Shown here: positions 788-56,141 of the stretch, piece by piece | Layout of the letters: each line of letters opens with the position of its first letter | Position numbering within the stretch: position 1 is the first letter of the stretch | Assembly (NCBI GenBank): GCA_937960435.1 | Contig: CALGPN010000025.1 | Coordinates: 62,001 to 126,000, forward strand | From: an uncultured Desulfosoma sp. | GTDB taxonomy: Bacteria; Desulfobacterota; Syntrophobacteria; Syntrophobacterales; DSM-9756 | DNA: 64,000 bases | Direction of reading: 5' to 3' | The notes under the pieces: generated by a model | The model's database searches: none | Seen by the model: the letters and a program-made list of their open reading frames with translations, nothing else | Told to the model about the DNA's origin: nothing | Made by a program: the position numbers and the translations under genes

Positions 788-3700
788 ATGGGCGCAGGGC
801 AAAAAACTCGTTGGCCTGAAATGACATCGCGACGAGGCGCACTCCGGGTTTGCTTTTTCCTTGTTCTGGCCGCCCTAAACGGCATATGGGGCGTCCAGAG
901 GGCCAGCGGTGCCGAGGAATCCCTCCGCCGGCACGTGGAAGCCCTCACCCGCTTCGACGACCGGTCCACAGGATCTGCGGGCTGCACGGCCGCCGCCGAC
1001 TATATCGCCGAAACCTTCCGTCGCGCGGGTCTGAACTCCGTGGGCCGTCAGCTCTACTTCGTTCCCGTACCCGTTTTGGATGTGGGACGGATCACCGTGG
1101 GCTCGGAAAGTTATCCCCTTTACCCCTGGGCCCCAAACATGGCCATGCTCTCCCAAACCCCGCCTGAGGGCCTGGATGGGCCTCTAGTGGACGTTGGCGA
1201 CGGGGCTTTGGGCCGCTTCGACGGGCAGGTCATCCAAAATTCCTTGGTGCTCATGGATGTTTCTTCCGGCGAAAATTGGTGGTTTGCCGCCCAGATGGGG
1301 GCTAGAGCCGTCATTTTTCTCGGAGGGTCGGAAGAAACCCGCGATGAGTTCGCCGTCAAAGGGATCCCGACGCCTTTGGATTTTCCGAGATTTTACGCAC
1401 CACCCGAAACGGCGGCGCTTTTAAGGCAGGCCGCGGTCCGAAAGACCCGGGCGCATGTGCTTGTGCGCAGTCATTGGGAACACCGCACAGCACAGAACAT
1501 CTACGGCCTGATTCCGGGCTCTTCCCCGCAATTCGCCAAAGAGCTCGTGATTATCGAAGCACCTTACGATGCGGCATCCCACGTCATCGGTCTGGCGCCC
1601 GGCGCGGACCAGGCTTTTTCTGCCGCCGTGCTGCTTCACCTGGCCGAGTCTTTCGCGGCCCACCCTCCGGCCCGAAGCGTTCTCTTGGCGGCGGTTTCCG
1701 GGCACGGCCAGAGCCTTCTGGGCACGCGCCATTTCCTCTGGACACTGGAAGCGCCCCGTCGCAACCTTCGCCATGAACAGCGCGCGCTTGCCGAGAAACA
1801 AAAGGATGTGCAGGAGCTCCTCAGGGTCCTTTCACGGCCCGACCCGCTGGAGCCCGATGCGGAAAACCCCGCGACCATGACTAAAGTCTGGAGCTACGTG
1901 GTGGGACGGGCCAAGGACGAGGCGGATCGTTTGACCCGGGAAGCCCTCCATGAAAAAGAGCTCGCGGCGCAGGCGCTTCGCTACCGGCGCCTGAGCTGGA
2001 AGGAGACATCGGAGGAGCTCGGCCCCGAAGAGCGCGCTTTGGCATTGAACCTGATCCGGTCCGGACTCGGCGACCTGGAAAAAGAACGCCTAGAGACCCA
2101 CACCCGATTGAAGGTTACCAAGTCGTGGACGGATCTTCGAAACCTGGCGGACGACTTCGAGAGGGTCCTGCACCTCGGTCTTTCATTGTCGACTCATTCT
2201 CCACGGGTCACCCTCAGTGAATGGGGCGGCACCTTTCCTTTGCGGGAACAAGTGTACCGACTGGTGCGCAACGTGGAGCTCGCCGATCTTTTCCGCCGGT
2301 CGGCGGAAGAGGTGGCTCAGGAAACCACTCAAGAGCCCCTCTTTGAGAAAACCGCCCGGCACGGTGCGGACACGGCGCCTCGGGCCGTGGAAAGTGCAGG
2401 GCCCCACTGCATGGCGTGCGATATCGGGGCCTTGACCGGATGCCCGTCCTTTGCTCTTACCAGCGCCAACAACCGCCGCGCTCTCTGGGAAACCCCCAAC
2501 GACACGAAAACCCGGCTGGACTGGGACGGGCTGGGAACGTACCAAAACGTCTTGCCCGCCGTCTTGGCAAAAGTTTTCAGCCATCCCAAGCTCAAGGAAA
2601 GTTGTCGGCCGGGATTCGAGGGTTTGGCGTCCGTGGAAGGCCGGGCCATGTTCATCCGGCAAGGAGAACTTTTCCCGGATAAGCCCGCGCCGGGGACACT
2701 CGTCTTCGCCCTGCAGGGAAATTCCGTGGTTCGCGTCATGACGTTTCGCGACGGTTCCTTCTTCATCCCGGCGGTGGCCAACAAACGGGTCGCTTTTCAA
2801 AAACTTATCCTCGAACCTTACGGCGTGGATCCCGACACCGGAAAGATCCGGTGGGTCGCCGACAAGGTTCAGACATCGAAAGACAACTACCGCTTGAATA
2901 TCAAAGGGCGCATCGCCACCTCCACGCTGGTGATGTTCCCCTGTCGGCAAACGGACATCGTGGGCGTCCTCGACCCGCAGCGCATGGACTACCTCACCAA
3001 GATTACCGTGCTGGACGGGGTCACGGGAGCGCGCCCTCTGCGGTATTGGTACAGCCGCTTGGACGGTCGGGACACCTTCGCCGTGTCCCTGTTTCTAGAG
3101 CGAGGCAGCCGATTCAAGGTCATCCTTTCGGACACTTTGCTCCGCAAGGAATTCCTGCTCATCAACGGGGATGCCCAAAACCCCATGGGCCTGGGCCATC
3201 CCATCGGCGAACCGGCCGTGATCACCCACACACCCGTCCGGGTTGTGGAGGATCTCATCCATTTGGTGGGCGAGCGGCTCAGGAACCTTACCGCCCACGG
3301 AATCAGCAACCGCTATTTGGAAAGCCTCTATCGAGAATCCCTGGAAGAACGGGACCGTGCACGGGAGGACGAGGCCGCCCTGCGCCACAGTCTTTCCTGG
3401 GAAAGGACCGTCTCCGCCTGGGCCAAACTCAACGCGGTCTATAACGAAATCGAAAACACGCAGCAGGACGTCCTCGGCGGTGTCATGTTCTTCATCGCCT
3501 TGTTCGTGCCTTTCGCCTACTGTCTGGAGCGCTATCTTTTCTGCTTTCGAAACATCTACAAGCAGATCACGGCCTTCTTTGTGCTCCTCATCGCCACCAT
3601 CCTCACCATCCGCGCTCTCCATCCGGCGTTCCGGCTCACCTACAACCCCATGGTGGTCATCATCGCCTTCTTTATCGTGGCCTTGAGCGTCCTGGTGTCC

Positions 3701-51256: not shown

Positions 51257-52495
51257 ATGGAGATTCGGCACACGAACACAAAACCTCATGGCGAAAACGA
51301 CAGTGACCGGCTGGTGCACGAGCAACTGCGCCGGATCGGGCACAAGCTTCTCATCATGAGCGGCAAAGGTGGCGTGGGAAAAAGCAGCGTGGCGGCGGCC
51401 TTAAGTGTCACCCTTGCGCAAAAAGGGTTTAAAGTGGGCCTCTTGGATGTGGATCTCCATGGGCCCAGCATCCCTAAGATCCTCGGAGTTCAGGGGACAT
51501 TTCATGTGAACGCCCAGAGGCGCTTGGTTCCCCACGCTCTCATGGAAAACCTCCATGTGGTCTCTGTCCAACTTCTGCTGGATGACCCCGATGCCGCCGT
51601 CATTTGGAGAGGTCCCGTCAAGCATGGGGTCATCAAACAATTCATCGGCGAAGTGGACTGGGGGACTCTCGACTACCTGATCGTCGATTGCCCGCCGGGA
51701 ACCGGTGATGAACCTTTGAGCATCGCTCAGACGATTCCCGACGTTCATGCCGTGATCGTGACCACGCCTCAAGAGATCGCCCTCCAAGACGTTCGGAAAT
51801 CCATAAACTTTTGCCGTCAGGCCCACGTGCCTGTTCTGGGTCTTGTGGAAAACATGAGCGCCCTTGTGTGCCCGCATTGCGGCAAAGAGGTCCACCTTTT
51901 CGGCTCGGGAGGAGGCCGACGAACCGCCGAGCGGATGCAGGTCCATTTCCTGGGAAGCCTGCCTTTCGACCTCCGCGTGGTCGAAGCCGGGGACACCGGT
52001 GCTACCCTGCAGATGGCCCATGACCCGGGCAGCTCTTTTTCCCAAGCCTTGAATGCCCTCGCGGATCGGGTCATCGAACGATGTTCCCCGCCGCCCCTTT
52101 TTGAAGCGCAAGAAACGCATACGGACACAAACGAAAGGAGCGCGACTGTGGACTCGAATATTGTGCGGATTGCCGTCCCCACGGCCGACGGAATGCTTTG
52201 CAAGCATTTCGGGCACTGTGAAAAATTTGTTCTACTGGACGTTCACGGCTCTGAGATCCAAAATCGCACGGAGGTGAAACCGCCTCCTCACGAACCCGGC
52301 CTGCTTCCTCTGTGGCTGGCCGATCAAGGTGTGGGGCTGGTCATTGCCGGAGGCATGGGTCAACGGGCCGTCAGTCTCCTTGAAGAGCGGGGCATCCGGG
52401 TTCTGACGAGAGCCCCCGCCGATGATCCCCAAAACCTGGTACGCCGATATCTCGAGGGCACATTGGTATGTGGGGAAAACGTCTGCGATCATTAA
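51257..52495 (+). CDS. Mrp/NBP35-family ATPase with C-terminal NifX-like domain
   Basis: A 412-residue Fe-S carrier-type ATPase: GKGGVGKSSVAAAL, LLDVDLHGPSIPKILG, VDCPPGTGDEPL, CxxC metal motif VCPHCGKEV near residue 200. A NifX/NafY-like domain follows (about 300-412; IVRIAVPTADGMLCKHFGHCEKF, ending CGENVCDH). The given start has no ribosome site. A second ATG at 51238 in another frame, with GGAGG 11 bases upstream, encodes a His/Cys-rich stretch (MTHSCHHGDSAHEHK) typical of Mrp N-termini, and would join this frame if one A of the AAAA at 51294-51297 were absent. The gene may thus carry a real or sequencing frameshift at its 5' end. Confidence 0.9.
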   Translation: MEIRHTNTKPHGENDSDRLVHEQLRRIGHKLLIMSGKGGVGKSSVAAALSVTLAQKGFKVGLLDVDLHGPSIPKILGVQGTFHVNAQRRLVPHALMENLHVVSVQLLLDDPDAAVIWRGPVKHGVIKQFIGEVDWGTLDYLIVDCPPGTGDEPLSIAQTIPDVHAVIVTTPQEIALQDVRKSINFCRQAHVPVLGLVENMSALVCPHCGKEVHLFGSGGGRRTAERMQVHFLGSLPFDLRVVEAGDTGATLQMAHDPGSSFSQALNALADRVIERCSPPPLFEAQETHTDTNERSATVDSNIVRIAVPTADGMLCKHFGHCEKFVLLDVHGSEIQNRTEVKPPPHEPGLLPLWLADQGVGLVIAGGMGQRAVSLLEERGIRVLTRAPADDPQNLVRRYLEGTLVCGENVCDH

Positions 52496-53246: not shown

Positions 53247-54515
53247 GTGTTTTTAGGAATCCCCTTCAGCCGTTTGGGGCTGTTGATCTTCACGCGCTTG
53301 TGGCTCAACGCCGGAGTGCGTCTCGCCTACCCTTTTCTCCCCACCATCGCTCGAGGGTTGGGGATCAGCATCGAGCAAGCCGGCCTTTTTGTTGCGGCCC
53401 GCTCCTTCGTGGGCCTCTTCGGCATCGCGTTCGGATTCCTTTCAGAGAAAAAAGGGGAGAAAGCGGGCCTTCTTTTGGGCCTTGCTTTTTTCTCCCTGAG
53501 CGGCCTCTGCATCGGCTTTCATCTGAATCGCACGTGGGTCTTTATCGGCTTTATTTTGATGGGGCTGGCGCATGCGGTCTACAACCCCGCCGTCCAGGCC
53601 TATGTGAGCGGTCGGACGCCCTATCGGATTCGAGCCCGCGCCTTGGGTTTGCTCGAATCGTCCTGGTCCGCAGGCTGGTTTGTGGGAATCCCCGTCGGCG
53701 GCTTATTGATTTCCCGCTACGGCTGGAATGTCCCCTACATGCTTTTGGGGTTTATCGGCGTGATCCTTTTTCTCGCCACGCTCCGGGTTCCCTCGACCCC
53801 AAAGAAGTTTCCGGATTTGAGCGAGACCTGCGCTCGAAGGGAAAAACCCCACGACGGCTTCTTTAAGACGGACGGCCATAGGGGAAAATGCGCTCTTACG
53901 TCCACCACCCCGGCGGGATCGCCAGGCCGCCGTCCCAGGCCATGGCTGGCTCTCGGCGTCACCTTTTTCGCCCTGCTTGCCAACGAAAGCCTCATGATCG
54001 TCTACGGCGCCTGGATGGAATCCCGTTTTTCCATCGGGACCGGTTCCCTGGGAATCCTCTCCACTTTCATCGGCTTCATGGAATTGGCCGCCGAACTCAG
54101 CGTGGTCCTCATGGTGGATCGGCTTGGCAAAAAGCGGGCTCTCGGCTTTGGCCTCGCGGGGGCGGCATTGTGCTACGCCGCCTTGCCCGCTGCTCAAACA
54201 TCCGTAGCGCTTTCTGTGGCCGTGTTCGGTGCTGTTGCCTACTTTTTTGAATTCACCGTGGTCAGCGCCTTCCCCTACGTTTCGGAACTCAACCCCAACG
54301 CTCGGGGACGCTGGCTCTCCGCCAATTACAGCTTCATGGTCGCCGGTCGCGTCGTCGGGGCCTTGATCGGCCCCCGGCTATGGGAACACACCCATACCCT
54401 CCGCGCCCACATGGCCCTTTCCCTCCTGGCCACGGCCGTGGCCGCGGTTTTCCTCGCCATGGCCCCAAATCCGGACCGGTCCCGAAAGAGACCAGATCAC
54501 GGCCGGATGCCATAA
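53247..54515 (+). CDS. Major facilitator superfamily transporter
   Basis: A 422-residue, 12-helix MFS protein. The loop-2/3 motif GFLSEKKGEKAG and AYVSGRTPYRIRARALGLLESSWSAGW are typical of MFS drug/metabolite exporters. A long basic, Ser/Thr-rich central loop (about 190-232) separates the halves. It starts with GTG, with AAAGGAGG 10 bases upstream. It lies directly before hgcA and may be cotranscribed; a role in export of a thiol, metal or methylated product is speculative. Confidence 0.9.
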   Translation: MFLGIPFSRLGLLIFTRLWLNAGVRLAYPFLPTIARGLGISIEQAGLFVAARSFVGLFGIAFGFLSEKKGEKAGLLLGLAFFSLSGLCIGFHLNRTWVFIGFILMGLAHAVYNPAVQAYVSGRTPYRIRARALGLLESSWSAGWFVGIPVGGLLISRYGWNVPYMLLGFIGVILFLATLRVPSTPKKFPDLSETCARREKPHDGFFKTDGHRGKCALTSTTPAGSPGRRPRPWLALGVTFFALLANESLMIVYGAWMESRFSIGTGSLGILSTFIGFMELAAELSVVLMVDRLGKKRALGFGLAGAALCYAALPAAQTSVALSVAVFGAVAYFFEFTVVSAFPYVSELNPNARGRWLSANYSFMVAGRVVGALIGPRLWEHTHTLRAHMALSLLATAVAAVFLAMAPNPDRSRKRPDHGRMP

Positions 54516-54636
54516 AGATGCGGAATGCACTTGGAAGAGTTCGTTATCGGGCGCGCCGATTGACAAAATCGCGGCCCCGAGGTTAAGGGAGCCATACTCG
54601 ATTGCTTCAGGTGTCATTCAAAAAAAGAGGCCGCCG

Positions 54637-54741
54637 ATGGGCACACAAACGAGGGAAAGTCTTTTCAAAAACGTGGAACCCTGTTGCCGTCCTCCTCAGT
54701 CGGTGAAGGTTTCGTGCTGACCACCCAAGAAGCGGGCTCAG
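54637..54741 (+). other. Probable N-terminal coding extension of hgcA, interrupted by in-frame TGA
   Basis: In the same frame as hgcA, ATG 54637 (AGAGG 6 bases upstream) opens 27 codons including an EPCCRPPQS segment of the CC-rich type I recall from HgcA N-termini. They end with Cys27 and then TGA at 54718-54720. Thirteen bases later comes a hairpin. After the TGA the frame continues as PPKKRAQVSPP into the recognised HgcA sequence. Reading the TGA as selenocysteine gives a 386-residue HgcA with Sec at position 28. Alternatives: leader peptide, sequence error, or genuine nonsense mutation with re-initiation at GTG 54742. Confidence 0.55.
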
Positions 54742-54749
54742 GTGAGCCC
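54718..54749 (+). promoter_or_regulatory. In-frame TGA with SECIS-like hairpin
   Basis: TGA at 54718-54720. The stem GGGCTC (54734-54739) pairs with GAGCCC (54744-54749) around loop AGGT. There are 19 bases from the TGA to the loop, and a G lies within the first two loop bases. Both agree with the bacterial SECIS rules used for SelB-dependent recoding; the E. coli fdhF loop also begins AGGU. Confidence 0.5.
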
Positions 54750-55797
54750 CCCTCGGATGGACCAACCTTTCGTCGATGGTCCGTGGAACACGCCGGTCGG
54801 TCCCGTTCCTCTTGTGTCCTCTCGTTTGACGGCCCGGGACCGATGGGGAACGTTCAAGGTACGCTGCGGGATTGGGCGGATGCGCTACACGGTCGATCCC
54901 GGCCTCTATGCCCTGGGAAAACCGGGTCCGGCGGATTCCGTGCTGGTGACGGCCAATTATAAATTGAGCTTCGACGCGCTCCGGGCGGCTCTACCCGGTC
55001 GAAACGCCTGGATTCTCGTCGTAGACACCAAGGGAATCAACGTGTGGTGTGCCGCCGGAAAGGGAACTTTCGGCACGGACGAAGTGGTCGCCCGCGTTCA
55101 GGCCTGCGGCCTGCACCATGTGGTGTCTCATCGAACGCTTATCCTGCCGCAGCTTTCCGCACCCGGCGTGGCGGCCCGGCAGGTAAAAACGCACACAGGC
55201 TTTACGGCGCTCTTCGGCCCTGTGGACGCTCGAGATCTTCCCGCCTACCTGGATGCCGGACACAAAGCCACGAAAGCCATGCGGCGCAAAAAGTTTCCTT
55301 TAAGGGAGCGCCTTGAGCTCATACCTGTAGAACTGGTGCACAGTTTGAAGTGGGCCGGGATCATCGCAACGGTTTTTTTCGTCTTGGGCGGGTTCCTCGA
55401 TGAGGGACCCTTTTGGATTTCGGCATCCCGTGCGGCCTTAGGGCCCGCCACGGCGCTCCTGGGAGGCATCGCCGCCGGAGCCGTCTCGACCCCGGTCTTG
55501 CTCCCCTGGCTCCCGGGCCGGGCTTTTACGACGAAGGGCCTTTGGGCAGGGGCAATCCTTGCTGGAGCCGCCCTGCCTTTTATCGGTCCAAAGCTTTCCG
55601 GTGCCCTGGAAACGGTTTCGTGGGGATGCGGCGTGCTGGCGGTTTCGGCGTTTCTGGCCATGAACTTTACGGGGGCTTCGACCTATACCTCCCTTTCCGG
55701 CGTGCGTCGGGAAATGCGCTGGGCCGTGCCTTTAGAAGTTGTTCTTTTCGCCATTTTTGCCGGCTTATGGCTCTACAGCCGCTTGGTTTCCACATGA
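54742..55797 (+). CDS. hgcA: Corrinoid methyltransferase for mercury methylation, HgcA
   Basis: Conventional reading gives 351 residues from GTG 54742 (ATG 54757 is an alternative). The cap-helix signature NVWCAAGK is intact, with the cobalt-coordinating Cys at residue 103. The flanking GLYALGKPGPADSVLVTANYKLSFDALR and HHVVSHRTLILPQLSAPGVAARQVK are diagnostic. Five C-terminal membrane helices (about 195-350) match the HgcA topology. HgcA transfers a methyl group from a methylcorrinoid to Hg(II). hgcB follows 47 bases later. The true N-terminus may lie 105 bases upstream, across an in-frame TGA. Confidence 0.95.
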   Translation: MSPPRMDQPFVDGPWNTPVGPVPLVSSRLTARDRWGTFKVRCGIGRMRYTVDPGLYALGKPGPADSVLVTANYKLSFDALRAALPGRNAWILVVDTKGINVWCAAGKGTFGTDEVVARVQACGLHHVVSHRTLILPQLSAPGVAARQVKTHTGFTALFGPVDARDLPAYLDAGHKATKAMRRKKFPLRERLELIPVELVHSLKWAGIIATVFFVLGGFLDEGPFWISASRAALGPATALLGGIAAGAVSTPVLLPWLPGRAFTTKGLWAGAILAGAALPFIGPKLSGALETVSWGCGVLAVSAFLAMNFTGASTYTSLSGVRREMRWAVPLEVVLFAIFAGLWLYSRLVST

Positions 55798-55844: not shown

Positions 55845-56141
55845 ATGATCGGTCGCTTCGTGTACTTGAAGGATGTCGTGACGCTTCAGTTGGATCCGGA
55901 GAAATGCGTCGGGTGTGGTTTCTGCACCGATGTGTGTCCTCACGGCGTCTTCGTGCGGGAAAATGGTTCGATCCGTATCGCCTTTCGCGACGCTTGCATG
56001 GAATGCGGCGCCTGTGCCCGAAACTGCCCGGCGGACGCCATTCGTGTGAGAACCGGTGTGGGATGCGCTCAGGCTGTGATCCACAGCATGATCGGACGTT
56101 CGGGCGAAGGCTGTTGCTCTCTGGATTCGGGCTGTTGCTGA
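55845..56141 (+). CDS. hgcB: Ferredoxin partner of mercury methylation, HgcB
   Basis: A 98-residue protein with two [4Fe-4S] sites (C21-x2-C24-x2-C27-x3-C31 and C51-x2-C54-x2-C57-x3-C61), the additional conserved C74 in GVGCA, and Cys pairs C90-C91 and C97-C98 at the C-terminus. The terminal pair is the HgcB hallmark proposed to bind Hg(II) or methylmercury. It reduces the HgcA corrinoid. Start at ATG 55845 with CGGAG upstream gives normal length; ATG 55794 overlapping the hgcA stop would add 17 residues. Confidence 0.95.
   Translation: MIGRFVYLKDVVTLQLDPEKCVGCGFCTDVCPHGVFVRENGSIRIAFRDACMECGACARNCPADAIRVRTGVGCAQAVIHSMIGRSGEGCCSLDSGCC

Follow-up and report, generated by a model that had tools for sequence, protein, structure and literature searches.

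An in-frame UGA codon in hgcA of an uncultured Desulfosoma species is very probably read as selenocysteine

The hgcA gene found in a 64,000-nucleotide stretch of DNA from an uncultured Desulfosoma sp. (here called the window) is, with a probability that we put at about 0.96 on comparative sequence evidence, a selenoprotein gene in which UGA at position 54718 is read as selenocysteine (Sec). This reading, made by a first-pass annotation of the DNA, was supported by the reading frame, by position-specific conservation of the codon, by covariation in the hairpin following it and by a complete Sec machinery in the genome. The proposal itself was thus right, and the gene belongs to a selenoprotein class that has already been described. 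The features of the window discussed here, all on the forward strand, are as follows.

54625 to 54630: ribosome-binding-like site AAGAGG, 6 bases 5' of the ATG, seen in the sequence
54637 to 55797: hgcA read at full length as a proposed selenoprotein of 386 residues, residue 28 being Sec (NF040863, 431 bits; PF03599)
54637 to 54750: N-terminal tail of about 38 residues, predicted to be disordered, with Cys-Cys at residues 16-17 and Cys-Sec at 27-28 (AlphaFold2, conservation in the genus)
54718 to 54720: in-frame TGA, putatively read as Sec (TGA at this codon in 42 distinct hgcA genes and Cys there in many other relatives)
54734 to 54749: candidate bacterial SECIS apical hairpin GGGCTC-AGGT-GAGCCC (comparison, covariation, held-out model)
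55845 to 56141: hgcB, the partner ferredoxin, in a Cys form (GVGC, C-terminal Cys-Cys; NF040864)

The frame of hgcA was said to run upstream of its conventional start to an ATG with a ribosome site before it, and to hold 27 codons ending in Cys before the TGA, all of which was borne out by the sequence. The frame is open between TGA 54364 and TGA 54718, with no ATG, GTG or TTG between 54364 and 54637 other than the ATG at 54637-54639, which opens 27 codons of which the last, TGC, directly precedes TGA 54718. The ATG is preceded by AAGAGG at 54625-54630, and GAGG was also found 5' of an upstream ATG in members of the genus or family (loci L103, L104, L009 and L010). When translated with TGA as Sec, the 386-residue product matched the HgcA model NF040863 with 431.4 bits over residues 57-382 (curated cut-off 275 bits), a match that begins at residue 57 and leaves the Sec region outside the coverage of the model. 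The protein comprises the N-terminal tail, a corrinoid-binding domain with the cap helix NVWCAAGK, in which N135, V136, W137, C138 and A139 were invariant among 41 sequences, and five membrane helices. The adjoining hgcB matched NF040864 with 121.7 bits (cut-off 99), and the TGA after its terminal Cys-Cys is its stop codon. Upstream of hgcA, at 51257-52495 and 53247-54515 of the window, the neighbours are the iron-sulfur carrier MrpORP (NF041136, 522 bits) and an MFS transporter.

Conservation of the TGA was assessed among 80 hgcA loci from a genome collection together with loci of the family and order of the window, with the upstream translations aligned on the HgcA core motif LDQPFV. A TGA was located exactly 13 or 14 codons before this core in 42 distinct loci, that of the window included, while many of the other relatives had CC, C-x-C or a single Cys at the same codon and about 15 had neither; the Cys that the first-pass annotation had proposed to look for at the TGA position in relatives was thus found. 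Among 95 hgcA loci, 43 of the 45 in-frame TGAs within 28 codons before the core fell at codon -13 or -14, and only three TAA or TAG codons occurred in that same stretch. Two congeners displayed PCC...SCU, exactly as in the window. The upstream tail was poorly conserved except for its Cys/Sec motifs, which are kept within the genus, so that the outcome named beforehand as speaking against recoding, a lack of any conserved upstream sequence, was not what we saw. Cys directly preceded Sec in 34 of the 42 Sec forms and was absent from that place in the other 8; in Desulfacinum and its kin (L009, L010 and L104) the sequence at codon 13 before the core was GUC or GUS, with PCEP upstream. Sec in this protein hence does not depend upon a neighbouring Cys.

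Turning to the hairpin, the 6-bp stem was confirmed, with GGGCTC at 54734-54739, the loop AGGT at 54740-54743 and GAGCCC at 54744-54749, starting 13 bases after the TGA. The TGA-to-loop distance of 19 bases also held, whereas the assertion that the loop opens with two Gs did not, the loop being A-G-G-T with G at one of its first two positions, which still agrees with the rule for bacterial SECIS elements. Folded alone, the hairpin of the window was not statistically unusual (z -0.84, with 46 of 200 shuffled sequences folding as well), and an Rfam search of the region gave no match at either gathering or permissive thresholds. Because folding of the single sequence carried no significance, comparison across relatives was used instead. 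A hairpin of at least 5 bp at fixed spacing was found in 39 of 42 TGA genes, with its loop 19 or 22 bases past the TGA and with slightly different loop sizes at a few loci. The 37 Cys genes had no such hairpin, and shuffled sequences had it at a rate of 2.3%. The stem arms varied together, as in GGCTC/GAGCC, GGTTC/GAACC, AAGACCC/GGGTCTT and GGCCA/TGGCC. Two-sided changes were seen at all eight stem pairs tested (27 cells versus 11.9 in shuffles, with none of 500 shuffles as high), compensatory changes occurred at all five core stem pairs, and pairing dropped from 78% to about 50% when partners were shifted by one base. Using a covariance model built without the family of the window, which replaced an earlier model that had included the window, the site scored 32.6 bits with an E-value of 1.7e-6, the next best match in the 64-kb window having 0.054. 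This held-out match, together with the conserved position of the TGA (43 of 45), places the hairpin beyond chance. Other TGA-plus-hairpin combinations matched in a scan of the window were judged by eye to be chance occurrences.

Translation of HgcA would accordingly be expected to start at ATG 54637, whereupon SelB, bound to the hairpin at 54734-54749, would help the ribosome to take Sec-tRNASec at UGA 54718 rather than stop there; the resulting HgcA of 386 residues would have Cys27-Sec28 within its flexible N-terminal tail. That Sec is inserted at this UGA in the cell is what we infer from the sequence comparisons. If the TGA were instead the true stop of a 27-codon leader, HgcA would have to start at GTG 54742 or ATG 54757, and gene callers would indeed begin there, both codons lying just downstream of the TGA. 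Neither of the two is preceded by a ribosome-site motif, however, and such downstream starts were not conserved: of 41 TGA genes, just 5 had an ATG between TGA and core, and 10 had none of ATG, GTG and TTG there. An upstream ATG was, on the other hand, present within the 60 codons examined in 31 of the 41 genes, in 23 cases with a ribosome-site-like motif. With downstream starts scarce and upstream ATGs frequent, a leader peptide followed by re-initiation becomes a poor account, and since relatives have open frames with Cys in place of the TGA, and the covarying hairpin is tied to the TGA, we consider it highly improbable.

The genome contained all four sel genes that the first-pass annotation had suggested looking for, with matches of 623 bits for selA, 408 bits for selB and 375 bits for selD (G000:C12:12892-13815, locus L098), as well as a selC with a UCA anticodon (74.5 bits), called as tRNA-SeC by ARAGORN. 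The selD gene has an in-frame TGA of its own (VTGAGU-ASKL), which indicates that SelD is itself a selenoprotein here. Within the order, selA was found in 39 of 39 genomes searched. Also present were a second, divergent SelB (261 bits; G000:C34:5214-7100, minus strand) and, with that SelB about 1.1 kb downstream, a tRNASec-like tRNACys with a GCA anticodon and U73 (G000:C34:8244-8331, minus strand), a combination (loci L090 and L002) of the selB*/selC* type described for Syntrophobacterales (PMC7609411). With these two genes together on contig C34, and with such tRNAs in Desulfobacterales being able to have a UCA anticodon and a special CysRS (PMC7609411), decoding of the UGA as cysteine by this pair had to be weighed. 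The GCA anticodon of the tRNA found here does not read UGA, though, and the genome has SelB, SelA and a Sec-containing SelD alongside a canonical UCA selC, which makes cysteine decoding still less probable than a leader peptide; we rejected it for this genome, a rejection that does not extend to relatives having the UCA form. That the TGA is a TGC or TGT misread in sequencing or assembly can, finally, practically be dismissed, since the same TGA occurs in both congeners and in dozens of independent genomes, which makes a base error very unlikely, and the SECIS accompanies the TGA while Cys genes are without it.

Selenocysteine decoding of hgcA thus being the preferred reading, its distribution was followed on a rapidly built tree of the cores of 94 HgcA sequences, with moderate branch support, where the Sec state required 8 changes versus 31 in shuffles and hence is clustered, with several switches or losses. 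One gene among the Sec forms in that tree, L020 from a Nitrospinota bin, encodes a Cys-Cys HgcA, and the held-out model nonetheless gave 23 bits in it (2974-3011). Its hairpin is broken (GGCTCAGGATAGCC), as if left over from a change of Sec to Cys. By eye, similar SECIS-like remnants could be seen upstream of the hgcA core in L041 and L048. The decayed hairpins of these three Cys-Cys genes are apparently all relics of Sec-to-Cys changes.

The first-pass annotation implied that a Sec-containing HgcA would be new, but selenoprotein forms of both HgcA and HgcB were reported by Haft and Gwadz in 2023 (J Bacteriol 205:e0025922, as cited in PMC11588087 and PMC13188914). Citing that work, PMC11588087 notes that some homologs of HgcA and HgcB may be selenoproteins, as suggested by sequence analysis, and a 2026 review (PMC13188914) lists as predicted selenoproteins HgcA (NF040863, motif CU, with WP_250697417.1 as an example) and HgcB (NF040864, GVGU). 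The window gene shares the family and the Cys-Sec motif (TGC-TGA, residues 27-28) of the HgcA form reported by Haft and Gwadz, as it is cited there, and we found no difference from the entry listed in the review. The Desulfacinum relatives depart from the listed CU motif in having Cys or Ser after Sec (GUC, GUS) and no Cys before it. The partner protein, for which a Sec form (GVGU, NF040864) is listed likewise, has Cys in the window (GVGC), and among the fetched loci of relatives Cys and no Sec was seen at that site wherever it could be read. The experimentally studied HgcA of Pseudodesulfovibrio mercurii ND132 is alike in its corrinoid domain with a cap-helix Cys, its five-helix membrane domain and its adjoining hgcB; it differs in that work on it has treated it as an ordinary protein lacking Sec, and the passages of PMC7305189 and PMC11588087 consulted do not discuss the N-terminal Cys/Sec motif. 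What is added here to the known class is smaller: Sec without a preceding Cys (8 of 42), SECIS relics in some Cys genes, and the location of Sec in a tail for which disorder is predicted.

That location was predicted by an AlphaFold2 model (mean pLDDT 85, with Sec entered as Cys), whose confidence was high through most of both the corrinoid and the membrane domain and which had five long C-terminal helices. In the tail, pLDDT was below 50 for residues 1-25 and low to about residue 38, with block means of 36-70 over residues 1-40. By analogy, the thiol or selenol of the tail could be a ligand of Hg, a tentative assignment to which we give somewhat less than even odds; it would then bind Hg(II) or methylmercury and shuttle it between the corrinoid site and the Cys-bearing C-terminal tail of HgcB. 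Transfer of this sort is proposed for the Cys pair of HgcB itself. A further step, more doubtful, would be to regard the flexible tail as a second Hg-carrying arm that faces the C-terminal Cys tail of HgcB, with Sec and not a Cys pair as its essential ligand, an idea that draws on the retention of Sec in the 8 of 42 TGA genes without a preceding Cys, including Sec-Cys and Sec-Ser in Desulfacinum.

The tail of HgcA is lost when a gene caller treats the UGA as a stop, whereby the Sec site is missed when proteins are compared or when the gene is cloned from a downstream start. The keeping of an N-terminal selenol by many hgcA genes suggests that selenium plays a role in the formation of methylmercury and, if the Sec reading is true, selenium supply could affect HgcA production in these organisms.
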